Below, in pieces: positions 18,512 through 30,946 of a stretch of DNA of 64,000 nt. Below the pieces are notes generated by a model. It was not told where the DNA came from and searched no databases. It saw nothing but the letters and a program-made list of their open reading frames with translations. Numbering within the stretch: position 1 is the stretch's first letter; every line of letters starts with the position of its first letter. The position numbers and the translations under genes were made by a program. The stretch is from Stigmatella aurantiaca DW4/3-1 (GTDB lineage Bacteria; Myxococcota; Myxococcia; Myxococcales; Myxococcaceae), in the NCBI RefSeq assembly GCF_000165485.1, contig NC_014623.1, positions 9,008,893 through 9,072,892 on the forward strand, written 5' to 3'.

Positions 18512-18877
18512 AAGGCTCGGACGGGGCGGCTCCTGCAAGCTGTTGCCATTGTCGTGGCTGGGTGCGCCACTTCTCAAAAGGCACCTGAGACTCAAGAGGC
18601 GCCTGAGACCTACGCTTGGGCGCCTGTACGCCCACCCGCTGTGCCCGGAACGGGCCTCCCCACCCTCGGACAGCCGGGGCAGGTTCGCCCTCAGCCCCTG
18701 CCAAGGAGCCCGCACAAGCGCGTGTTGCCACCCACCTGGGAACCGGGCCTTTGGGCTGGAGATGCTCCTCACGCCTCGAAAGAACCGGAGGCGAACCCCA
18801 CACCGGAGAAGTCCAGAGCGAACAGGAGGGATCCGCCTGCCCCGGTGACGACGGAGCGCCGCCTACAGTGCGACCCT
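18512..18877 (+). pseudogene. 5' fragment of a lipoprotein gene, cut by the IS3 element
   Basis: An open plus-strand frame encodes a lipoprotein-like N-terminus: basic residues (KARTGR), a hydrophobic run LLQAVAIVVAGCAT with lipobox Cys near 18563, then a Pro-rich extracytoplasmic stretch to the IS3 boundary at 18877. No ATG is visible upstream in frame; GTG 18554 lies inside the signal, so the start has decayed or is unusual. The frame runs on into non-coding repeat sequence after 18878, so the protein is truncated. Myxobacterial polymorphic lipoprotein toxins begin this way, but the diagnostic C-terminus is lost and no family can be named. Confidence 0.5.
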
Positions 18878-18897
18878 TGGGCTTGCCCCGATTTGGT

Positions 18898-19203
18898 GGC
18901 TCTCCCGCACGTTGTGTGGCTGCCCACCAGGAGCCTCCGCTTCGCCCCTCCCGAAGAGGGAAGGCACGAACCTGTCCGACAACAGGGTCGCGCAGAACAG
19001 ATATGGCGCGGCAACCGAGCGAGGAGGCCCTCGGTGCTGGCAAAGCGAATGAGACGTCCCAGCCCAGCTTGGGCCCTCCTGCCAACCAAGTTCAAATCGC
19101 TATTCTGCGCGACCCTGCAAGCAGACAGGTTCTGTGAGGCTGCGACAGGCACACGCCCTTGTGAATTCCTCAGAACGCGATCCACACGAAGCGCGGGAGA
19201 GCC
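18898..19203. mobile_element. 306-bp MITE-like element, left copy
   Basis: Terminal inverted repeats GGCTCTCCCGC (18898-18908) and GCGGGAGAGCC (19193-19203) bound 306 bp that show no convincing gene. A perfect 8-bp direct duplication GATTTGGT flanks it (18890-18897 and 19204-19211), so it transposed into the IS3 left terminal repeat. No transposase is encoded inside, so it would depend on a transposase elsewhere. A second, seemingly identical copy lies in inverted orientation at 20442-20747. Confidence 0.8.
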
Positions 19204-19222
19204 GATTTGGTGGACACAGGAC

Positions 19223-20098
19223 TTAAGCTGCCAACGTAACAGGTAGGGTGGCGTTCTCAAAGTCCACCGGGCTCATGTAGCCCAGCGTCGAGTGCCGCCG
19301 CTGCCGATTGTAGAAAACCTCGATGTACTCGAAGAGGGCCGAGCGAGCCTGCTGACGGGTGGCGAAGTCAGTCCGGTAGACCAGTTCCTGCTTCAGGCTG
19401 CTGAAGAAGCTCTCCACCACCGCGTTGTCCCAGCAGTTGCCCTTCCTGGACATGCTGCACTCAATGCCTCGAGAGGCCAGCGCCTGCTGGTAGTCGGTAC
19501 TGGCGTACTGGCTGCCCCGGTCCGAGTGGTGCAGGAGCCCCTTGGGAGGCTGGCGCCCTTGCAGGGCCATCTCCAAGCCTGAGAGTACCAGGTGCCGGTC
19601 GATGTGCTCGCCCATGGCCCAGCCCACCACCTTGCGGCTGAACAGGTCCAGCACCACCGCCAGGTACAGCCACCCTTCGGCTGTCCACACGTAGGTGATG
19701 TCCGTGGCCCAGGTGCGGTTGGGGGCCTGGGGGCTGAAGTCCCTGTTGAGCACGTTGGGGGCCACCGGCAGGCCATGCCTGGAGTCCGTGGTGCACACCC
19801 GGCGGCCTCTGCGGCGGGCGGCCAGCTTCTGCTGCCCCATGAGCCGCGCCACGCGCTTGCGGCTCACCCGGCGGCCTTGCGCTCGCAGCTGCGCGTGCAC
19901 CCGCGGGCTGCCGTACACCCCGCGGCTGTCTCGGTGGGCTTGGGCCACCTCGGCCGCCAGCCGCTGGTCTTCCTCCTGTCGGGCAGAGGCTGGGCGGCGG
20001 CTCCAGGCGTAGAAGCCCGAGCGCGACACGCCCAACTGCTCACACAGGAACTCCACCGGGAAGTGGGCCTTCTGCGCCTGGATGAACTCGAACTTCAC
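19223..20098 (-). CDS. IS3-family transposase OrfB (rve integrase core)
   Basis: About 291 residues if started at GTG 20098; more likely made as an OrfAB fusion by -1 frameshifting at the A7G site. The opening FPVEFLCEQLGVSRSGFYAW is the HTH_21-type segment. The DDE triad is visible: D in TWATDITYV, D in HHSDRGSQY, and E in NAVVESFFSSLK. All three residues and the usual spacing are intact, so the enzyme looks active. It cuts and joins IS3 ends through a figure-eight/circle intermediate. The flanking terminal repeats, however, are interrupted by MITEs, which may block mobility. Confidence 0.92.
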   Translation of the reverse strand: MKFEFIQAQKAHFPVEFLCEQLGVSRSGFYAWSRRPASARQEEDQRLAAEVAQAHRDSRGVYGSPRVHAQLRAQGRRVSRKRVARLMGQQKLAARRRGRRVCTTDSRHGLPVAPNVLNRDFSPQAPNRTWATDITYVWTAEGWLYLAVVLDLFSRKVVGWAMGEHIDRHLVLSGLEMALQGRQPPKGLLHHSDRGSQYASTDYQQALASRGIECSMSRKGNCWDNAVVESFFSSLKQELVYRTDFATRQQARSALFEYIEVFYNRQRRHSTLGYMSPVDFENATLPVTLAA

Positions 20099-20394
20099 TT
20101 CGAGCCCTCCTTGGCGAAGAAGGCCGCCGCTTTTTTTAGGAAGTCCCGCTCCATCAGCAGCTGCCGGTTCTCTCGCCGCAGTTGGAGCAGTTCCTCCCGC
20201 TCCGACTGGCTCAATGGCTCGGGCCCGGCAGGGGCCTCGCTGCGCTCGGCGTGCTGCACCCACTGCCGCAGCGCCGACTCCGTCAAGTCCAAGTCCTTGG
20301 CCACCTGCGGCAGGGACTTGCCACTCTCTCGGGCCAACTTCACCGCCTCGGCCTTGAACTCCTCGGTGAACTGCCGCCTCTTTCTTCTCTCCAT
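20095..20394 (-). CDS. IS3-family transposase OrfA (helix-turn-helix)
   Basis: 99 residues from ATG 20394 (a GTG two codons upstream is possible). The N-terminal HTH contains RRQFTEEFKAEAVKLARESG and the C-terminal leucine-zipper segment LRRENRQLLMERDFLKKAAA. OrfA binds the terminal repeats of IS3 elements and regulates transposition. Its 3' end holds the A7G frameshift site and overlaps the OrfB frame. Confidence 0.9.
   Translation of the reverse strand: MERRKRRQFTEEFKAEAVKLARESGKSLPQVAKDLDLTESALRQWVQHAERSEAPAGPEPLSQSEREELLQLRRENRQLLMERDFLKKAAAFFAKEGSK
20130..20137 (-). other. Programmed -1 ribosomal frameshift site (A7G) of the IS3 element
   Basis: On the minus strand, CTA AAA AAA G occurs near the end of OrfA. 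Slipping back one base moves the reading from ...DFLKKAAAFF into ...KKSGGLLRQGG, which continues in frame into OrfB. A7G slippery runs are the known frameshift signals of many IS3 elements, producing the OrfAB transposase. Confidence 0.7.
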
Positions 20395-20441
20395 GGACAC
20401 TCCTCCCTGTGCTTCGACTTATTGGGGGTGTCCACTAAACC

Positions 20442-20747
20442 GGCTCTCCCGCGCTTCGTGTGGATCGCGTTCTGAGGAATTCACAAGGGCGTGTGCCTGT
20501 CGCAGCCTCACAGAACCTGTCTGCTTGCAGGGTCGCGCAGAATAGCGATTTGAACTTGGTTGGCAGGAGGGCCCAAGCTGGGCTGGGACGTCTCATTCGC
20601 TTTGCCAGCACCGAGGGCCTCCTCGCTCGGTTGCCGCGCCATATCTGTTCTGCGCGACCCTGTTGTCGGACAGGTTCGTGCCTTCCCTCTTCGGGAGGGG
20701 CGAAGCGGAGGCTCCTGGTGGGCAGCCACACAACGTGCGGGAGAGCC
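20442..20747. mobile_element. 306-bp MITE-like element, right copy (inverted)
   Basis: It is the inverted counterpart of the element at 18898-19203 and appears identical: translations in several frames match along the whole length. Its outer flank ACCAAATC (20748-20755) is the complement of the left copy's duplication, but its inner flank ACTAAACC (20434-20441) differs from it at two positions. This suggests that the right copy arose by copying the left arm onto the right one rather than by a second independent insertion. Confidence 0.75.
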
Positions 20748-20767
20748 ACCAAATCGGGGCAAGCCCA

Positions 20768-21192
20768 GACAGTTCCACGCGGCACGCCTCGAAGGTCTGC
20801 TGCGGACGGCTCACGTTCACCAGCCCATCCACCGTGCCCGGCTGCCCGGTGAGCAGAAACACGACGCTTGCGGGCGAGCCCTCGCGGTAGGTGACTCGCA
20901 GCGCGAGCCGTTCCCCGGGCCCAAGCGCCACTGTGGGCGAGACCGTCACGCTCTGTTCCCCCTCCTCGACCACAGCGAAGCGGGCGCGGCCCTCCAGTTG
21001 GACAGACTCAGGGACGATCCGAGCATCCAGGCGGATCATCGTCACGACGCCAGGCGCGACATAGATCAACGGGGGCTCGCCAGCCTTGCCCGTCAGAACG
21101 AGGGAGCGCCCTGCGGGCGCGGCCTGTGCCGTAGCGGTGAGGCCCACCAGCAGGGAGGCGAGCGCAAAACTTGGTGTGAACGGTCGGAGCAA
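20768..21192 (-). pseudogene. DUF2381 (TIGR02268) family protein, 3' part lost at the IS3 boundary
   Basis: The minus-strand frame from ATG 21192 encodes a signal peptide (FALASLLVGLTATAQA) and about 120 residues typical of the myxobacterial DUF2381/TIGR02268 family: PLIYVAPGVVTMIRLDARI, VALGPGERLALRVTY and, just before the junction, RPQQTFEACRVEL. After 20768 the frame runs into IS3/MITE sequence. Intact members have roughly another 150-200 residues, which are absent. The family is a Myxococcota speciality of unknown function, often near Ser/Thr kinases. This copy is broken and probably inactive. Confidence 0.8.
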
Positions 21193-22003: not shown

Positions 22004-22495
22004 TCAGGTGTTGCCCGGCGCTGACCTCTTGAGCCAGTACGCAGGGCGGCGCGCACGCAAAGCGGCCTCCAAGAAGTCCGAGAATGAATCCTCGATCTTG
22101 TCGCAGTAGTTCGGATCCGGCCATGCCTCATGCCACGCGTCGAACAGTGGATAGCGCCCGTTCACCTGTTGGCTCACGTCGATCACCACGTAGTTGCCGT
22201 CTTGAACGTCGCAGACCGTGTACACGGAGGCAGGGCCCCACTTGTCGTCATCTTCGCCGTAGATGGCTACGCGCGCCCGGACGATCTCGGTCAGGGGAAG
22301 GATCTGGTAAGGCGAATTTGGCAGCCGCTTGATCAACTCTGCGCCGTTGCAGTGCAGATAGAACGCCCGCAGGTCGGGATCCAGCTTCCAGCCCACGCGC
22401 TGCTCGAATTCCGCAATCTCCGCAGGCGTAGCGGATGGATACGGGAAGTGATCGCGCGAGACTTCTTCAAGCAAGCTGATCATGGGCTTTGGCAT
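22004..22495 (-). CDS. SMI1/KNR4 (SUKH) family immunity protein
   Basis: 163 residues. The start SLLEEVSRDHFPYPSATPAE, then EIAEFEQRVGWKLDPDLRAF with YLHCNGAELI, is the conserved SUKH core, and GNYVVIDVS plus ALDA-like C-terminal helix positions follow. SUKH proteins are the commonest immunity proteins of bacterial polymorphic nuclease toxins and act by binding the toxin in the cytoplasm. The start codon is two bases after the stop of the lipoprotein toxin gene, so the two are coupled. It should protect against that toxin. Confidence 0.88.
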   Translation of the reverse strand: MPKPMISLLEEVSRDHFPYPSATPAEIAEFEQRVGWKLDPDLRAFYLHCNGAELIKRLPNSPYQILPLTEIVRARVAIYGEDDDKWGPASVYTVCDVQDGNYVVIDVSQQVNGRYPLFDAWHEAWPDPNYCDKIEDSFSDFLEAALRARRPAYWLKRSAPGNT

Positions 22496-23184: not shown

Positions 23185-23301
23185 CTAGGAGTGTGTTGCA
23201 GTAACGGGAAAACCGAGCTTCGACCTACGAGCGGTAGTACCGGCCCCAGAGTCGAAGCCCATCAGGTAGTAGGTCATCGGATTACCCCAACAGGCTCCTA
23301 G
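23185..23301. repeat. 117-bp CTAG-bounded MITE-like repeat, copy 1
   Basis: Starts CTAGGAGTGTGTTGCAGTAA and ends with the complement of CTAGGAGCCTGTTGGGGTAA, so the ends are imperfect inverted repeats beginning at CTAG. An exact-length inverted copy is at 24043-24159. It is non-coding. The bounding CTAG probably marks the insertion target. Confidence 0.75.
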
Positions 23302-24042
23302 CAGGCGAGCCTGGAAGCGCGGAGGCTCTACTGGGCCCAGCTTCACCCGTCCGACGCGCGCGCTGCCGGTCCGACGCGTGCCAGGGCTCCACGGGGCCCG
23401 GCTTCACCTGTCCGACGCGCGCTGCCGGTCCGACACGCGCCAGGGATCCACGAGCCCAGCAGGTGAGCCTCGACACATGCGCGCATGATGGCGCCGGGCG
23501 TGGGCCCCGGTGGCTCCGGCCGTGGCTCCGGCCGTGGCTCCGGGCCGGGCCCGTAGAAGCCCCGTAGAAGTCCCGTCACTGCTCCGCATCCGTCACGGTC
23601 CAGCCGCACCACACCGCACCGCGCGCGATCAGTCCGCCCGCCCGCATGGGCCCTTGGTTGCCCGGCTGCACGCTTGCCGATCAACGTTCGCGTTTCGCCT
23701 GTCGTCTAGACACACGCCTTTGCGCTGTGTCACTTCTGCCTTGGGTAGTTGTGGGTAGTTCCGGGCAGGTTGGCGAGTTTGTAAAGGGCGGGTAGGGGTA
23801 TGGTTGGGAAAAACTCCCAGGAGGGGCAACCCTCCATGTGCGGCGCAGTCGTGCGCCGTTGGTTGGCTGGCAGCAACGCCGGGAGAAGCGCCGGTAACAC
23901 CGGCGAGAACACCGGCGGAAACGCCAGGAATGCCAGCGAGCAACGCCAGCAGCAACGCCATGGCGCGCCGGTAGTCACTCCAGGCCGCGCCGCGCGTTCT
24001 GCGGCGTCGGCTGATTCGGAGCTGCGCTGCCTCGTTGCCGGG
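23302..24042. repeat. Repeat-filled non-coding region R2 between two MITEs
   Basis: No credible gene in 741 bp. 23302-23470 holds diverged copies of the roughly 66-bp unit of R1. 23480-23745 is related to 31680-31972 in the same orientation; the best-matching part includes GGCCCTTGG, then CTGCACGCTTGCCGAT, and later TGTCACTTCTGCC. 23870-23960 is a short imperfect minisatellite (units like AACACCGGCGA and AACGCCAGCA). The function is unknown. Confidence 0.65.
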
Positions 24043-24159
24043 CTAGGAGCCTGTTGGGGTAATCCGATGACCTACTACCTGATGGGCTTCGACTCTGGGG
24101 CCGGTACTACCGCTCGTAGGTCGAAGCTCGGTTTTCCCGTTACTGCAACACACTCCTAG
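24043..24159. repeat. 117-bp CTAG-bounded MITE-like repeat, copy 2 (inverted)
   Basis: It is the reverse complement of 23185-23301 along its whole length, with CTAG at both ends. Its right-hand CTAG (24156-24159) is shared with the left edge of the IS1182 element, so the IS1182 element inserted at that very tetranucleotide or the MITE did. Confidence 0.75.
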
Positions 24160-25769
24160 AGCACCGAACAGGTTAGAGCCCCTCCGTTCGCCGCTGAGCG
24201 GCGTGCGAGGGTCTCCAGGTTCTGCACGGCACAGAGGCGACGCAGGTCGAATGTATTCTTGCGCGTGCCCAGATAGCGAGCACGAGGCCCCTGCCGATTG
24301 CTCAGGTGGGCCAGCCGATGTTCGACACCGACGCGCTCGCGCAGTTTGGCGCGTCCGGTGCGGGTTTCTTGAAGACTTCGCAGCTTCTTCTGGAGGGCTT
24401 CATCCTCCCCCATCGTGACGGTCCGTCCCCGGCCGGTCGCTGCATGCGTACACTGCGCGCGCAGGGGGCACGGGCCGCAGACTTCAGGGTCGAACTGGAC
24501 TACCTGCCCCGGTTCAAAGGCCTCCACCTGTCCTCCGGGACAGGTGATGGTTCCGTCACGGACGTTGATCTTGAAGTCTCTTTTCCCAAAGAGCCCAGGC
24601 TTGCCGTGAGCACCTTTCCACGGTTTGCAGACGATGGCACCTGCCCTCCCCACCACGTGCTCCACCAGGGTGCTGTTCAGATAGGCCCGGTCTATCAGCA
24701 GTTCATCCGGCTCGAATCCTATCCGCGCCATGTCCGCTTGAAGCTGGGGAGCCGCCTCCTCCTCAGGCCGATTGGCGGGCGTCACCGCACAGGCCAGCAC
24801 CCGCTCCGAATCCAGATGCGTGCTCAGGTGCTGCTTGAAACCATTGAACCGCTTGCTCTTGCTCTTGCGGCCGTGGCGCATCTGAGCATCTTCAATGGAG
24901 ACGCGCCGGTCCTCGGCGACACCTTGCCGAATCCGTACCCCGCCTGGCACAGGCTCCAAGTCCTGTGCTTTCACCTGAACGAGCGCTTCGATATAGCGCC
25001 CCAGCGGTGCCTCCTCGCTCTCATTGGGACGCCTCTTCTCCACCCACGCTGACAGCCGATCCAACTGCTTGCAGAGGCGATTGAGTGCCTCGGCCTTCTG
25101 TTCCGAATCGTTCCAGTCGACGTCCAAGGCGGCCTTGATGCTCGAGGCCGCCAGCAGCGGCGCGCCCGCCTGAGCACAGACCTCCTCGACGGTTGTTTCC
25201 AGCGCCACGGCCATGCACTCGGCTATTTTCCGCCCCGCGTGGCCGAGCAGGTTGAAGGTGTCCTCAACCCGCCCGGCTCCTTCTAAAGGGCGGCTGTCCA
25301 CCGCCACTCTCAGCTGCTTGGGCAGCTTCTTCCAGTCGAAGGCTCTCGTCTCTTTGGCCAGCTCTACCGTCCGCTCCAGCAGCCGACGGTCCATGTCGTG
25401 GCGGATGAGCCGTTGGCGAAACTGCTGCAGCCCTCCCTGCGAGAAGGCGGGTTTGTCATCGTCTTGCGCAAGCGTCCCCAGCACCAGTCTCCAGCAACGG
25501 TCCGTCGCCGACAGCCGTACCGCCTCCGCATCCGAGACTTGGAGGTAGGCCTGGAGCAGCACTCCCATGCACATCAGCGCGGGCGGCTGCGGCTCGTCTC
25601 CTTGTCCCGAGTCGCGATACATTGCCTCCAACTCCGCTTGGAAGGCCTCCGCGAACAGCTCGTGGCGATGCTCTCTCAGGAACACGAACAGCTTTCGGCT
25701 CCTGCCCGCCAGCTTCAGCAGCCTCTCCTCCCGCTCGCTGCACTTCACCTCCGGCTTCCATCGCTCCAT
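24156..25769 (-). CDS. IS1182-family transposase (DUF772 / DDE_Tnp_1-type)
   Basis: 537 residues from ATG 25769. The N-terminal DUF772-like part contains LFAEAFQAELEAMYRDSG and QPPALMCMGVLLQAYLQVSD. The catalytic region shows VAVDSRPLEGAGRVEDTFNL and, later, RRVSIEDAQMRHGRKSKSKR, ELLIDRAYLNST and a CxxC cluster CPGGQVEAF...CGPCPLRAQC. These are hallmarks of IS1182 transposases. No frameshift or stop was seen. The frame stays open upstream of ATG 25769 through repeat array R3, but the family starts near 'RWKPEV'. The stop codon lies in the CTAG at the element's edge. A degraded relative occurs at 40.8-41.2 kb. Confidence 0.92.
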   Translation of the reverse strand: MERWKPEVKCSEREERLLKLAGRSRKLFVFLREHRHELFAEAFQAELEAMYRDSGQGDEPQPPALMCMGVLLQAYLQVSDAEAVRLSATDRCWRLVLGTLAQDDDKPAFSQGGLQQFRQRLIRHDMDRRLLERTVELAKETRAFDWKKLPKQLRVAVDSRPLEGAGRVEDTFNLLGHAGRKIAECMAVALETTVEEVCAQAGAPLLAASSIKAALDVDWNDSEQKAEALNRLCKQLDRLSAWVEKRRPNESEEAPLGRYIEALVQVKAQDLEPVPGGVRIRQGVAEDRRVSIEDAQMRHGRKSKSKRFNGFKQHLSTHLDSERVLACAVTPANRPEEEAAPQLQADMARIGFEPDELLIDRAYLNSTLVEHVVGRAGAIVCKPWKGAHGKPGLFGKRDFKINVRDGTITCPGGQVEAFEPGQVVQFDPEVCGPCPLRAQCTHAATGRGRTVTMGEDEALQKKLRSLQETRTGRAKLRERVGVEHRLAHLSNRQGPRARYLGTRKNTFDLRRLCAVQNLETLARRSAANGGALTCSVL

Positions 25770-25879
25770 GCCGCTCCTCCTCGCACCGGCAGCACTCATG
25801 AGCATGGACGCGCTCGGGTGTCGATCCCCCTCTCCAAGCGCTCGAATTGACGTAGGTTTCAGCCTGATCGGTGCTCTAG
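24156..25879 (-). mobile_element. IS1182-family insertion sequence, complete
   Basis: Terminal inverted repeats AGAGCACCGAACAGGTTAGA (24160-24179) and the complement of AGAGCACCGATCAGGCTGAA (25856-25875) bound the element. CTAG lies directly outside each end (24156-24159, 25876-25879), consistent with a 4-bp target duplication. One intact transposase gene fills it; its stop codon TAG is formed by the flanking CTAG. Confidence 0.85.
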
Positions 25880-25899
25880 CGCCGTGCTCCCCGGGCGCG

Positions 25900-26440
25900 C
25901 TCCCTTGCCCGGTTTCCGCACTGCCAAGCTGCGTGCGCCACCGGCCCGAGCTGGAGCTGTCCGACGCGCGCGCCACCGGGGCCGAGCTGGAGCTGTCCGA
26001 CGCGCGCGCCACCGGGGCCGAGCTGGAGCTGTCCGACGCGCGCACCACCGGGGCCGAGTTGGGAGCGGCGACGATGGCTGCCGTCCTGACGCGCGCCCCG
26101 GGGCCGAGCTGGAGCGGTCCGCCGTGCGCGCGCCACGGGCCGAGCTGAACGCGGCGACGATGGCTGCCGTCCTGGCGCGCGCCACCGGGGCCGAGTTGGA
26201 GCGGTCCGACGCGCGCGCCACCGGGGCCGAGTTGGAGCGGTCCGACGTGGGCGGCCACAGGGCCGAGTTGGAGCTGTCCGACGCGCGCTCACCACCGGGC
26301 TGAGCTGGAGCCGTCCGACGCACGCCACCGGGGCCGAGGAGGACGCGGCGACCATGGCTGCCGTCCTGGAGCGCGCCACCTGCCCGAGCTGGCGCTGTCG
26401 GACGCGCGCTCCTCCATCGGCGCTCTCTGGTGGGGCGTGC
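25900..26440. repeat. Tandem 36-bp repeat array R3
   Basis: GAGCTGGAGCTGTCCGACGC begins at 25948, 25984 and 26020, an exact 36-bp period, with the rest of each unit reading GCGCGCCACCGGGGCC. Further diverged units continue to 26410, some with a second motif CGGCGACGATGGCTGCCGTC (26065, 26152, 26347). The last unit (26377-26410) has the variant GGCGCTGTCGGACGCG, also found just after the immunity gene at 28211-28245. No gene is supported despite long open frames on both strands. Confidence 0.85.
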
Positions 26441-26507: not shown

Positions 26508-27425
26508 ATGAGTGCGCGAACTTGCAGCGCCCCCCTGCTCCTGCTCCTGCTCTCGGCCTGCGCCACGATGGATCCGAGCCCGGGAGAGCTGGAGGACCCG
26601 AGTCCCCAGAGTCCGAGATTCGCCAACCTTCAGCGGGCGGCGCAGTACCCGTGGACGGATGATGGGAAATGCGTGGTGCGGGAAGCCTCCAACGAGTGGC
26701 CGATCCTTGCGGAGCGGTGCTTTCATGCTCTCGATCGCGACAGGGTCAGGTTCAGGGATGTCACGAAAAGATGCGCTGTCGCCTACGCGGATGCAGCCGC
26801 TCCCGCAGTCGTGGCCCTCTGTGTTTTCGCGGCACCCGAGATCGTTGTCGGTGCAGTGATTGTGATTGGCGCGGTGGTCGTAGCAGCCGCGATCCAAGAG
26901 GGGATTGATGCTTATCAACGGAACGCATCCCGCGAGCGCGCGAAGCCCAAGGCTCAAACGCGGCCCGCTAAGGAGCCGTTAGCGAACCGAGCGCCTCAGC
27001 CAAAGGGGTCGAGCACCGGAGACATCTTCCCCCCACCGCCAGAAACCCAGCCGCGCCCTCCGTCGTGCGAGCCCATCCCGGTGCGGCATGCGGGCGAAGA
27101 TGCCCCGCATAACGAGTGCGCCGATAAGTTTCCGCCCAACCGTTATCCCGGCATGGACGTATTCGTGGGCGGTGAGCGCTTCGATGCGCTGCAAGTCGGC
27201 GTGCGCGTGCTGTGGGAGATCAAGACCCACCGATTTGACACCTACGCTGATTTTATCCAGGAGCGGGAGATTGAGAAAGAGGTGGAGCAATTGACCAAGG
27301 AACGCGACGCTGCGCGGACCTGTGGATACGACTTCGTCGTTGGGGTGAGCACGCAAGCGCACAAAGACGCGCTGCGCGCCTTGATTCCCACGCTCCATGT
27401 CGTCGTCACGGGGTGCACACGATGA
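26508..27425 (+). CDS. Lipoprotein toxin candidate with DUF6310-like nuclease C-terminus
   Basis: 305 residues from ATG 26508 with AAAGGA upstream. The lipoprotein signal ends in LLLLLLSAC (Cys 16). Residues about 92-135 are strongly hydrophobic (APAVVALCVFAAPEIVVGAV). A Pro-rich linker follows (GDIFPPPPETQPRPPSC). The C-terminal about 100 residues match the myxobacterial DUF6310 pattern: NRYPGMDVFVGGERFDALQV, then RVLWEIKTHRFDTY and CGYDFVVGVST. FDAL...WEIK has the D-(x)n-ExK arrangement of PD-(D/E)xK nucleases. The immunity gene overlaps by ATGA. The layout is that of SitAI-like polymorphic lipoprotein toxins. Confidence 0.8.
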   Translation: MSARTCSAPLLLLLLSACATMDPSPGELEDPSPQSPRFANLQRAAQYPWTDDGKCVVREASNEWPILAERCFHALDRDRVRFRDVTKRCAVAYADAAAPAVVALCVFAAPEIVVGAVIVIGAVVVAAAIQEGIDAYQRNASRERAKPKAQTRPAKEPLANRAPQPKGSSTGDIFPPPPETQPRPPSCEPIPVRHAGEDAPHNECADKFPPNRYPGMDVFVGGERFDALQVGVRVLWEIKTHRFDTYADFIQEREIEKEVEQLTKERDAARTCGYDFVVGVSTQAHKDALRALIPTLHVVVTGCTR

Positions 27426-28180
27426 TCATGCCTAGAGTCCTCGTCTTCATCGTCTACGCGCCTGCGCTCGTGGGCAAAGACGGCCGCTCGCTTAAGGTCA
27501 TCCATGGGATGGAAAAGGCACTTCCCGGCTTGCGCTTGGCATGGAGGATCTCCGAAGGCGGGCGCCCCATCGCATTGCCGCATCGCGACGCGTGGCTCGC
27601 GGAAAGGACGCAGGACGGGAGATTCCCTCTGCTGTGCAACGGGGACGAGAGTTACCCAGTGACGGTTTCGGGGAGGGAAAACTCGGCACTCTTCAGCCCG
27701 GGCGGTCAGCCGCAGCTCGACGTTCATGCGAAGTTGCCACTAGACGAGGCTGTTATCTCGGCAGCGCCGGCCATCCTTGAGGCCATGGCGGAGGGGGCGC
27801 GCGCGTTCTGGGGGCATGCGTCCCGGTATAGTTACGGCTCGGAAGTCGGGGAGCAGTTTCGCCGCTCCGCTGATGGACCGGAGCGCTCACCCCGTGGGCT
27901 TCCCATGCTCAATCTTCCAGAAAAACTCCCCGCGCCTGAGATTCCCTGTTTCCTCGGGTGGTTGAACTATTGGTCTGCTGCTGCCGCGCAGGCCATCGGG
28001 TTCCCGGATCCTGCTCGCGACGCCGAACTGCTCACGCGGGCGCGGCGCACGCCGTCGGGCGGATGGATTGTGAAGCTCACGGATGCGCCGCTCGATTATG
28101 ACAACCCCGCCCACCTGGACGCGCTCAATCGGGCCTACGAGCGCTTCCCGAAGATCGGCGGGCGCGACTCTCCACGCTGA
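27422..28180 (+). CDS. DUF5953 family protein, probable immunity protein
   Basis: 252 residues from ATG 27422, overlapping the toxin stop by four bases. The sequence VLVFIVYAPALVGKDGRSLK, then GMEKALPGLRLAW, FPLLCNGDESYPVTVSG, LPEKLPAPEIPCFLGWLNYW and AQAIGFPDPARDAEL is the DUF5953 family, which is found in Myxococcota next to DUF6310 lipoproteins. No signal peptide is present, so it acts in the cytoplasm, as expected for an immunity protein against a toxin delivered to that compartment. The immunity role is inferred from position. Confidence 0.8.
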   Translation: MIMPRVLVFIVYAPALVGKDGRSLKVIHGMEKALPGLRLAWRISEGGRPIALPHRDAWLAERTQDGRFPLLCNGDESYPVTVSGRENSALFSPGGQPQLDVHAKLPLDEAVISAAPAILEAMAEGARAFWGHASRYSYGSEVGEQFRRSADGPERSPRGLPMLNLPEKLPAPEIPCFLGWLNYWSAAAAQAIGFPDPARDAELLTRARRTPSGGWIVKLTDAPLDYDNPAHLDALNRAYERFPKIGGRDSPR

Positions 28181-28506: not shown

Positions 28507-28902
28507 ATGACGACCAGCGCAGAGACGACAAAGACAGAAGAGCCAGGGTGGTTGGCAGCGGCCCGACAACCGAGGTGGACGCCGGAAATAGCAGCCGAGG
28601 TGGTACGAGCCTGGCAGAAGGAAGGAGGAGCGCAGAGCGCGTTCATGCGCAAGCACGGGCTGCCCCGAGAGAGGCTGCGATTCTGGTCGAGGAGGCGCGC
28701 AGAGTGGGAGCAGAAAGAGAAACCTGCAATGGGCTTCGTGCCGGTGGAGGTGACGCCGGAGGCACCGAGTCAAAGGAGGCAGGGAGTTGGGGAGGCGGTA
28801 GTGGTGGAAGTGAAGGGAGTGAGGGTGAGGGTGGAGGGGGGAGCCAGCCAGGAGTTGGTGGAGCGGGTGCTGAGAGCTCTCCAGCGGGTGCAAGGATGCT
28901 GA
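28507..28902 (+). CDS. tnpA: IS66 TnpA (InsA-like DNA-binding protein)
   Basis: 131 residues from ATG 28507. The region RWTPEIAAEVVRAWQKEGGA, then FMRKHGLPRERLRFWSRR, is the HTH of IS66 TnpA proteins. The C-terminal half (GFVPVEVTPE, VEVKGVRVRVEGGASQELVE) matches the family's beta-strand tail. It is required together with TnpB and TnpC for IS66 transposition. The stop codon overlaps the tnpB start (ATGCTGA). Confidence 0.85.
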   Translation: MTTSAETTKTEEPGWLAAARQPRWTPEIAAEVVRAWQKEGGAQSAFMRKHGLPRERLRFWSRRRAEWEQKEKPAMGFVPVEVTPEAPSQRRQGVGEAVVVEVKGVRVRVEGGASQELVERVLRALQRVQGC

Positions 28903-29240
28903 GACTGCCGGAGGGGGTGAAAATCTGGGTGGCGACGGCGCCGTGCGACATGAGAAAGCAGGCCGACGGGTTGAGCGCACTGGTGGAGGGAAGCTTGGGC
29001 CAGGCGCCGAAGTCTGGCCACCTGTTTGTCTTCTTCTCGCGAAGGAGAGATTTCGTGAGGATTCTGTTCTGGGAGACGAATGGATATTGCACGGTGAGCA
29101 AGAGACTGGAGGCAGGACGCTTCCGGGTGCCTGAGCCGGTAGAAGGCCAGGGAGCGGTGCACCTGGAGGCGAGGCAACTGGCCGAAGTGCTGGCCCTGGT
29201 AGAGACAGGCAGCGGGGTGCGCCAGAGGCCGGTGCATTGA
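28896..29240 (+). CDS. tnpB: IS66 TnpB (Orf2 family)
   Basis: 114 residues from ATG 28896. MLRLPEGVKIWVATAPCDMR, then KQADGLSALV, GHLFVFFSRRRD and ILFWETNGYCTVSKRLEAGR are diagnostic for the IS66 Orf2/TnpB family. It overlaps the end of tnpA by seven bases, giving translational coupling. The function of TnpB in transposition is not enzymatically defined. Confidence 0.92.
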   Translation: MLRLPEGVKIWVATAPCDMRKQADGLSALVEGSLGQAPKSGHLFVFFSRRRDFVRILFWETNGYCTVSKRLEAGRFRVPEPVEGQGAVHLEARQLAEVLALVETGSGVRQRPVH

Positions 29241-29284
29241 GTCTTCAGTTGCGCACCCTACCTGGGACGTAGCATACCTGGGGC

Positions 29285-30946
29285 ATGAGCAGGCCCACAA
29301 CAGTCCAGGAGCAGGGGGCCGGGCCGGAGCCGAGACCGGAGCCCCCCGGCGAAGCCAGTGACATGGAGGCGGTGCGTGCGTACATGCGGCAGTTGCTGGA
29401 GGAGGGCCGAGGTGAGGAGGCCATCGAGTTGTTGCTGGGCCTTTTAGGAAGGCTGCGCGAGGAGCATTCCAGCACGGCGATGAGGCTGAAGGAGGCGTTG
29501 AGGCAACTGTACGGGCGCAGGAGTGAGAAGACCCCCGCCAGTTCCCTGCAACTGCTGCTGTCACTGCTCACCCAGCCGCCGCCTGGCCCGCCCGAGGCCG
29601 ACAGCGGAGCGCAAGCGCCTGCGGCGGCCCCAGCCGCCCCGCCGGAGCAGGCGCCGAAGAAGCCGCCCCGGCGTGTCCTGGCGCGCGGCGCCAAGGCGCT
29701 GCCGGCCCACCTGGAGCGGCGCGAGGTGCAGGTGGAGCCTTCTGCCGAAGAGTGTACGTGTCCTGAATGCGGTCAGCCCAGGAAGAGCATTGGCCAGGAA
29801 GTCAGCCAGCGGTTGGAATTGGAGCCCGCGCGCTTCTATGTGCGAGTGGAGAAGCGGCCCAAGCTGGCGTGTGCTCGCTGTAAGGAGGGTGTGGTGGCCG
29901 CCCCCGCGGGCGAGACGCCGCTGCCAGGAGCGTTGCCGGGCCCCGGCCTGCTGGCGCAGCTGTTGGTAGGCAAGTACCGAGACGGCCTACCGGTGCACCG
30001 CCAGCAGGCCATTTTCGATAAACGGTATGGGGTGAAGCTGCCGCCTTCCACCCTGGGCGACTGGGTGGCCGGTGCCAGCGACTTGCTGGTGCCCCTGGTG
30101 GCGCTGCTCAAGCGCCGAACGCTCAGTGACTTCCTGCTGCATACTGATGACACCGGGGTGCGAGTGCTGGACAAGGAGGACGCGCGTGGCGTCAAGCGCG
30201 GCCACCTCTGGCCTTACATCGGCCAGGGCGGCAATCTCTTCGTCGAGTACACACCGGATTGGAGTAGCCAGGGGCCCCAGGCGGTGCTGGCCAACTTCCA
30301 GGGCTATCTCGTGGTGGACGGCTACAAAGGCTACCAGGCGCTCTTCGGCCACGCTTCGCCTCGCACCGAGGTGGGATGTTGGATGCACGCCCGGCGTGGC
30401 TTCGAGCGTGCTCACCTGGCAGGTGACGCGCGTGGCAGCACAGTGCTGGCCCTCGTGCAGAAACTGTATGCCGTGGAACGCCAAGCCACCCAAGCCAGTC
30501 TGTCCTGCCAAGCCCGGCTGGCGCTGCGCTTGGAGAAGAGCGCTCCGGTCTGTCTCGAACTCTTCGGTTTGCTGACGGATTGGGCTCCTCACGTGCCCCC
30601 GAAAACGCCGCTGGGTAAGGCCATTGCCTATGCGCTCCACCGCTCTGTCCCCTTGGGCCGCTTCCTCGAGGATGGACGCGTGCCTCTGGACAATGGAGAG
30701 GCCGAACGGCTCATCAAGCTGATTGTCCTCGGCAGGAAGAACTGGCTCTTCCTGGGCAGCGACGCCGCAGGCCACCGCGCGGCGGCTGTCTATTCCCTGG
30801 TCCTCAGCTGCTATCGGCTGGAGATGGACCCCTGGGCTTACTTTCGCGACGTGTTGCCCAAACTCGGTGACACCCTCTTCCCCGCCTCTCGCATCGCGGA
30901 GCTCCTCCCCGAGGCGTGGGCACAGCAACCAGCTCAGCAGCGATAG
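29285..30946 (+). CDS. tnpC: IS66 transposase TnpC
   Basis: 553 residues from ATG 29285. The N-terminal leucine-zipper-like helix lies at about residues 20-85, a Pro/Ala linker follows, and a zinc-finger-type CTCPECGQP is near residue 158 with a second pair CARC near 196. The catalytic domain shows LPGALPGPGLLAQLLVGKYR, PPSTLGDWV, HTDDTGVRVLD, VVDGYKGYQAL, CWMHARRGF and the C-terminal LDNGEAERLIK...GRKNWLFLGS, all typical of DDE_Tnp_IS66. The protein is full length with no interruption. Confidence 0.95.
   Translation: MSRPTTVQEQGAGPEPRPEPPGEASDMEAVRAYMRQLLEEGRGEEAIELLLGLLGRLREEHSSTAMRLKEALRQLYGRRSEKTPASSLQLLLSLLTQPPPGPPEADSGAQAPAAAPAAPPEQAPKKPPRRVLARGAKALPAHLERREVQVEPSAEECTCPECGQPRKSIGQEVSQRLELEPARFYVRVEKRPKLACARCKEGVVAAPAGETPLPGALPGPGLLAQLLVGKYRDGLPVHRQQAIFDKRYGVKLPPSTLGDWVAGASDLLVPLVALLKRRTLSDFLLHTDDTGVRVLDKEDARGVKRGHLWPYIGQGGNLFVEYTPDWSSQGPQAVLANFQGYLVVDGYKGYQALFGHASPRTEVGCWMHARRGFERAHLAGDARGSTVLALVQKLYAVERQATQASLSCQARLALRLEKSAPVCLELFGLLTDWAPHVPPKTPLGKAIAYALHRSVPLGRFLEDGRVPLDNGEAERLIKLIVLGRKNWLFLGSDAAGHRAAAVYSLVLSCYRLEMDPWAYFRDVLPKLGDTLFPASRIAELLPEAWAQQPAQQR

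Follow-up and report, generated by a model that had tools for sequence, protein, structure and literature searches.

An ISL3-type mini-element in each terminal repeat of an IS3-family insertion sequence of Stigmatella aurantiaca

The stretch of the Stigmatella aurantiaca DW4/3-1 genome analysed here (64,000 nucleotides, positions 9,008,893 to 9,072,892 of contig NC_014623.1; hereafter the window) contains an insertion sequence of the IS3 family enclosed by two long inverted arms, which raises the question of how the same short element came to lie in both of its terminal repeats. The arms (18878-19217 and 20428-20767) are inverted copies of 340 nt each, 99% identical and 1210 nt apart. Each joins the outer 20 bp of an IS3-family terminal repeat to a 306-bp element that begins with GGCTCTCCCGC and ends with GCGGGAGAGCC (Table 1). 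In the left arm, TGGGCTTGCCCC and GATTTGGT are followed by the 306-bp core, a second GATTTGGT and GGACAC of IS3. The terminal repeat is divided by the core after base 20, and the 20-bp IS3 tip plus GG, the latter common to IS3 and the mini-element, remains in place at the insertion.

We aligned the two arms base by base over 340 bp, as the original prediction for this locus had proposed, and found two differences, at arm positions 328 and 332. Both fall within the inner 8-mer, GATTTGGT in the left arm and GGTTTAGT (minus strand) in the right one; the outer 20 bp of both arms are identical, as are the cores (306/306). The direct duplication flanking the core is therefore perfect in the left arm (8/8; at any given place, chance would produce this with a probability of about 4^-8) and matches at 6 of 8 positions in the right. 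The alignment thus bears out the claims that a 306-bp element interrupts the left IS3 terminus within a perfect 8-bp duplication, and that its inverted copy at the mirror position on the right has an inner flank unlike the outer one. Taken with the evidence below, the locus is very probably an IS3-group element whose two terminal repeats each hold a non-autonomous ISL3-type mini-element, the left of which would have entered in the manner of ISL3 elements at a preferred target.

Table 1. Coordinates of the IS3 element, its two arms and its flanks in the window.
Feature	Position	Strand	Evidence
Left flank: 5' portion of a gene cut off at the element	18554..18877	+	relatives continue with other sequence; no family match
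IS3 right terminal repeat (IRR), outer 20 bp, TGGGCTTGCCCCGATTTGGT	18878..18897	.	20-mers contiguous with GGACA in element-free IS3 relatives
Target duplication GATTTGGT, outer copy, left arm, 8 bp	18890..18897	.	arm alignment
ISL3-type mini-element, left copy, 306 bp	18898..19203	+	ends common to ISL3-family element L049
Nested insert, left copy, 135 bp, own inverted ends CAGGGTCGCGCAGAACAG...CTATTCTGCGCGACCCTG	18983..19117	+	
Target duplication GATTTGGT, inner copy, left arm, 8 bp	19204..19211	.	
IS3 IRR, inner part (GATTTGGTGGACAC)	19204..19217	.	
IS3 OrfB reading frame, IS3-family transposase, rve/DDE	19223..20263	-	NCBIfam NF033516 1.7e-118, Pfam PF00665
IS3 OrfA (HTH_Tnp_1)	20095..20400	-	Pfam PF01527, NF033516
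A7 run in OrfA, site type usual for -1 frameshifting OrfA/OrfB	20131..20137	-	putative frameshifting
IS3 left terminal repeat (IRL), inner part, GGTTTAGTGGACAC on minus strand	20428..20441	.	8-mer unlike outer flank
ISL3-type mini-element, right copy, 306 bp	20442..20747	-	identical and inverted
Nested insert, right copy, 135 bp	20528..20662	-	
IS3 end at IRL side, outer 20 bp, TGGGCTTGCCCCGATTTGGT on minus strand	20748..20767	.	same as IRR side
Right flank: TIGR02268-family gene cut off at the element	20768..21192	-	1.3e-23

The assignment of the host to the IS3 family is based on its transposase, encoded by OrfA and OrfB frames with a DDE domain (NF033516, PF00665 and PF01527). Its terminal repeats have the TG...CA form, with TGGGCTTGCCCC at both outer ends. 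A 3-bp target duplication is missing in the window (CCT on the left, GAC on the right), which we attribute to rearrangement. Ordinary IS3 copies show one in 5 of 23 end pairs (L210 entered as two pairs), against a shuffled mean of 0.69 and none of 5000 shuffles as high.

Among 91 genomes of the window's family that were searched for IS3 relatives, 26 gave a match at 1e-100, and 29 loci (L208-L236) were fetched. Both IS3 ends are uninterrupted in 22 of the 29, by a scan that needs an unbroken TG-N16-GTGGACA, so that breakage, truncation or divergence may account for the other 7 (in L223, an end is interrupted). One relative without the insert, L208, has an IS3 93.75% identical to that of the window over 1232 bp, with the repeats TGAGCCTGCCCCGGTTTTGTGGACAC (IRL) and TGGGCTTGCCCCGATTTAGTGGACAC (IRR). 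IS3 copies free of the mini-element, which the original prediction had proposed to look for, therefore do exist, and their ends argue against the 306-bp sequence being native to IS3 termini, the finding on which that prediction would have fallen. Because the repeats of these relatives are undivided, the 20 bp outside each 306-bp core can be identified as the IS3 tip. Another element-free relative, L209, carries TGGGCTTGCCCCGATTTGGT at both ends, so the outer tip of the right arm in the window need not be foreign; the mismatch between this tip and the inner 8-mer is the sole sign that something was replaced. When compared with the 29 IS3 loci by blastn, the core gave one match with an E value below 0.01, at L223 (29 bp, 4e-4), the rest being at least 0.06. 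In L223, the coding end of an ISL3 element stops at GCGGGAGAGCC, and the sequence continues immediately with GGTTCCGT and the inner portion of an IS3 IRR; this locus is a further case of an IS3 end occupied by an ISL3 element.

The guest can be placed through a longer element of the same genome. L049 (1757 bp, 9911969-9913725) has GGCTCTCCCGC-type ends (GGCTCTCCCGCACTTYGTGTGG) and a transposase frame of the ISL3 family (NF033550, 1.4e-108; PF01610, 5.7e-27), and so supplies the transposase with the same ends that the original prediction had suggested searching for. Its open frame has 584 aa, probably more than the protein itself, since the first start codon lies 21 bp outside the element; the frame also gives a weak match to an IS21 model (1.1e-9, residues 335-423). 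ISL3-family elements duplicate 8 bp of their target. The members found here do likewise, the direct duplication being 8/8 in the left arm and in each of the short copies L002, L019 and L053; the right arm (6/8) and the composite copies described below do not show it. By its sequence, the window's mini-element thus resembles insertion sequences of the ISL3 family (NF033550, PF01610), and non-autonomous elements derived from them, in the ends shared with L049 and in the 8-bp duplications, and we class it as a short, non-autonomous relative of the genome's ISL3-family transposon, whose transposase may mobilise it in trans. The window's group differs from the ISL3 family at large in being concentrated at IS3 terminal repeats.

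The mini-element has the characters of a MITE: it is short, has inverted ends and a target duplication, occurs in many copies and, judged by its length, has no room for a transposase. Its core measures 98-170 bp at many loci and 306 bp with an insert. The 306-bp element of the original prediction is confirmed in length and ends and refined in composition: the window's 306 bp are made up of a 168-bp copy, a 135-bp nested insert and a repeated CAA. The nested insert lies between two CAA triplets and bears its own inverted ends (CAGGGTCGCGCAGAACAG). Elsewhere among the 276 loci compared we found only a 93-bp partial copy of it (L006:1501-1593), which is also preceded by CTGTCGGACAA; in the own-genome DNA searches, the best 40 of 233, 76 and 184 candidates were scored.

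The insertion recurs at the same position of the IS3 repeat. Direct 8-bp duplications flank copies in an IRR (L002, ACCAAATC), in an IRR remnant (L053, ACAAAATC) and in an IRL (L128, GATTCCGT), and in L131, again in an IRR, the duplication matches at 7 of 8 positions; a further direct duplication (ACGGAATC) lies in an IS3-type tip of L133 whose end is not assigned. We considered whether the left-arm insertion might be shared by descent with L002, and thought this unlikely. The mini-element of the window shares 98% identity with the L007 copy and 89% with the L002 copy, suggesting separate insertions; the IS3 of L002 is 92.1% identical to the window's over 635 bp, a small difference from the 93.75% over 1232 bp of the element-free L208.

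To what extent these elements favour IS3 ends can be read from three counts. Among 51 element ends (own-genome matches to GGCTCTCCCGCRCTTYGTGTGG with at most 3 mismatches), 40 adjoin an IS3 end, 35 of them an outer tip and 5 an inner end, the window's own four being among the 40; the background computed from the window is 1.7% (outer) and 0.6% (inner). The pattern IS3 tip-N8-GGCTCTCCCGC (at most 2 mismatches) gave 224 matches, compared with 4 for the reversed control, and these occur in 47 of the 145 genomes of the order; like the count of ends, the number is raised by copies descending from one another. The 47 genomes are among the 96 of the window's family, and none of the 49 outside it has the pattern. 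A less biased sample is provided by ISL3 copies found by their transposase and not by IS3 sequence (80 of 110 relatives kept). Eight Myxococcaceae copies in it have both flanks, and five of these lie in IS3 tips (L128, L130, L131, L133 and L154): direct duplications in IS3-type ends account for three of the eight and composites for two, and the other three lie elsewhere (L129, L132 and L135). The last three, and the 11 of 51 ends that adjoin neither kind of IS3 end, count against the association.

The simplest reason for the association may be a target preference, because IS3 repeats contain TGCCCC-N8-GGACA, a case of the near-palindrome TGYCC-N9-GGRCA. Outside recognised IS3 ends, the insertion sites have few mismatches to this motif (0 in L132 and L135, 1 in L129 and 2 in L019), with a background of 0.034% at up to 1 mismatch and 0.46% at up to 2; L131, though in an IS3 end, has 2. 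The fit is suggestive only, as the motif was derived from the same data on which it was tested, and L147, L152 and L167, which are distant relatives, depart from it at 5 to 8 positions. On this proposal, the mini-element would have entered the right terminal repeat of IS3 (the left arm) as ISL3 elements do, duplicating 8 bp, at TGCCCC-N8-GGACA, a preferred target that close ISL3 relatives would also use outside recognised IS3 ends.

The mini-element also occurs in composites, in which an IS3 tip lies on each side of it, the two 8-mers are mutually inverted and the IS3 interior is gone. Pairing of ends by a mismatch rule, with 27 loci omitted beforehand as duplicates or overlaps, gave 35 composites, 13 direct duplications and 31 others in all collected genomes; the loci from other Myxococcaceae came mostly via the IS3-tip pattern and from 40 regions selected among the matches listed, a non-random sample in which composites are over-represented. 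Within the own genome, 9 of the 17 paired copies are composites, 4 have direct duplications and 4 are others (18 rows, of which L092 repeats L061). With 22 IS3 loci as reference, the tips are one IRL and one IRR in 21 of the 26 classifiable composites (p 0.0012) and of the same type in 5, and the remaining 9 of the 35 are ambiguous. In some composites the 20-mers match a single IS3 exactly (L247 compared with L219 and L100 with L211, for instance), and in six the core is longer (935-1769 bp), the ISL3 copy of L049 being one of them. They probably derive from IS3 copies hit at both ends, and could have formed by recombination between the two guests or by deletion from one guest to the other end. 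Only 2 of the 35 (L007 and L049) are flanked by 3-bp duplications (shuffled mean 0.94, p 0.24), so that mobilisation of composites by IS3 is unsupported in aggregate; nor did the 35 give a duplication signal at 2, 4, 5 or 8 bp.

The presence of the 20 bp, inverted, on both sides of 35 collected copies could also mean that they are part of the ISL3 element, which would then have a 42-bp terminal repeat alongside which IS3 merely inserted. Several distant ISL3 relatives do have outer inverted repeats of about 20 bp, of other sequence. We nevertheless rejected this reading as highly improbable: in element-free IS3 copies (22 of 29 loci) the 20-mers run unbroken into GGACA, and where a copy is flanked by direct 8-bp duplications, the 20 bp are missing from one or both of its sides.

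The flanks of the window element bear on its later history. It is bordered by two different truncated genes without a 3-bp duplication, and a rearrangement has therefore probably passed through or beside it. The missing gene parts were not found on the opposite side of the element. Each flank was found in relatives; an empty site with both flanks contiguous was found in none of 59 genomes (the best 8 candidates being scored in most), where one match, G079:C4, continued across the junction for 14 bp. The own-genome loci that were fetched, a small part of the genome, showed no reciprocal junction. A candidate for the displaced half of the left gene, at 27065-27475 of the window, was rejected, as it lies inside an intact 307-aa DUF6310 ORF and is read as a paralogue.

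Beyond the right flank, the window holds further mobile-element features. Inverted repeats of 136 nt (23185-23320 and 24024-24159; 94% complementary, 703 nt apart) are possibly the ends of another mobile element. A 700-aa ORF with DDE transposase domains (24156-26258, minus strand; PF13751, PF01609) overlaps, with its 5' part, direct repeats spaced by 36 bp (25907-26324), and IS66-type TnpB and transposase genes (PF05717, PF03050) follow at 28548-30946 on the plus strand. The minus strand at 22004-22495 encodes a protein of the SMI1/KNR4 (SUKH) family, whose members are often immunity proteins beside polymorphic toxins.

The anatomy, the duplication, the identity of the arms and the recurrence at one IS3 position were observed directly; the recombination step behind the right arm, like any continuing mobility, is reconstructed. 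According to the original prediction, the mini-element was inserted once and copied to the opposite end by gene conversion between the arms, which would have run from the outer tip of the right terminus to the inner edge of the mini-element. This history would account for the identity of bodies and outer tips, the rare 135-bp insert included, and for the difference in the inner 8-mer alone. However, the recipient would have lacked the element, so that about 14 bp of imperfect homology would have been available for conversion to begin in, and the switch would have had to fall no more than about 1 bp from the element's inner edge; moreover, both kinds of IS3 end are hit elsewhere (IRL in L128; IRR in L002, L053 and L131). 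We regard it as possible, with somewhat less than an even chance.

Alternatively, the element may have entered both the IRR and the IRL, the inner 8-mer GGTTTAGT being kept at the latter, after which the body and outer tip on the right would have been overwritten from the other arm or a similar copy, either by conversion between the arms or by a crossover with a composite elsewhere that also swapped the right flank. In such a history GGTTTAGT needs no chance breakpoint. Composites that pair left and right IS3 tips exist (the 21 classifiable cases above), and two different truncated genes without a 3-bp duplication are what a crossover through the element would be expected to leave. On the other hand, more steps are required, the fetched own-genome loci (part of the genome) contain no reciprocal junction, and the flanks are equally explained by a deletion beside the element. 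We give two insertions roughly even chances of being right, and rank them somewhat ahead of a single insertion with conversion, because the inner 8-mer then stays untouched automatically. Of the history originally predicted, the left insertion with its duplication thus stands, and conversion becomes one of two histories that fit, as ISL3-type hits in both the IRL and the IRR elsewhere make two insertions with recombination fit as well.

Targeting of terminal repeats is already known for a few elements, and ISL3 and IS3 are other families. IS4321 and IS5075 (IS1111 family) insert preferentially into the terminal repeats that bound transposons of the Tn21 family (Partridge and Hall 2003, cited in PMC11187229). 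They resemble the group described here in being insertion sequences that prefer another transposon's terminal inverted repeat; here, in contrast, the transposase family is a different one, 8 bp are duplicated, IS3 ends are the targets and, in composites, the host's two tips surround the guest. The likeness is behavioural, as the L049 transposase belongs to the ISL3 family and is not of the IS110/IS1111 (DEDD) type. TIMEs, mosaic non-autonomous transposons derived from Tn3, likewise show mini-elements participating in larger mosaic mobile units (PMC4133298); their composite-like units are bounded by two mini-element copies, whereas the guest of the window lies within two tips of its host. The titles and abstract openings of the open-access matches listed describe no ISL3 group that targets IS3 ends.

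More distant ISL3 relatives were also noted. L151, L157, L166, L188 and L159 (another phylum) have outer inverted repeats of about 20 bp of other sequence, and L147 and L152 have direct 8-bp duplications. One such outer-repeat sequence also occurs without ISL3 in Cupriavidus necator A5-1, where two facing matches 8.27 kb apart enclose an IS3-family ORF (NF033516, 3.6e-53), an IS4-type ORF and a group II intron reverse transcriptase. L190:4821-5256 and L286 (G145:C1:1290500-1299300) are Cupriavidus stretches between facing CGTGAAGTGTAGTAA-type sequences, as found around local ISL3 copies; L286 contains an IS3-like ORF, an IS4-like ORF and a group II intron reverse transcriptase.

As a tentative and rather doubtful extension, these elements might belong to an ISL3 clade specialised on the terminal repeats of other insertion sequences, in which double hits and loss of the interior would yield a nested-end hybrid movable by either of two unrelated transposases; relatives in Betaproteobacteria would perhaps use a different host element. 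If composites are moved by the IS3 transposase, the mini-element would gain a second mobilising enzyme by capturing the ends of its host, and IS3 copies with inserts in both ends would be natural tests of the length of repeat needed for movement.
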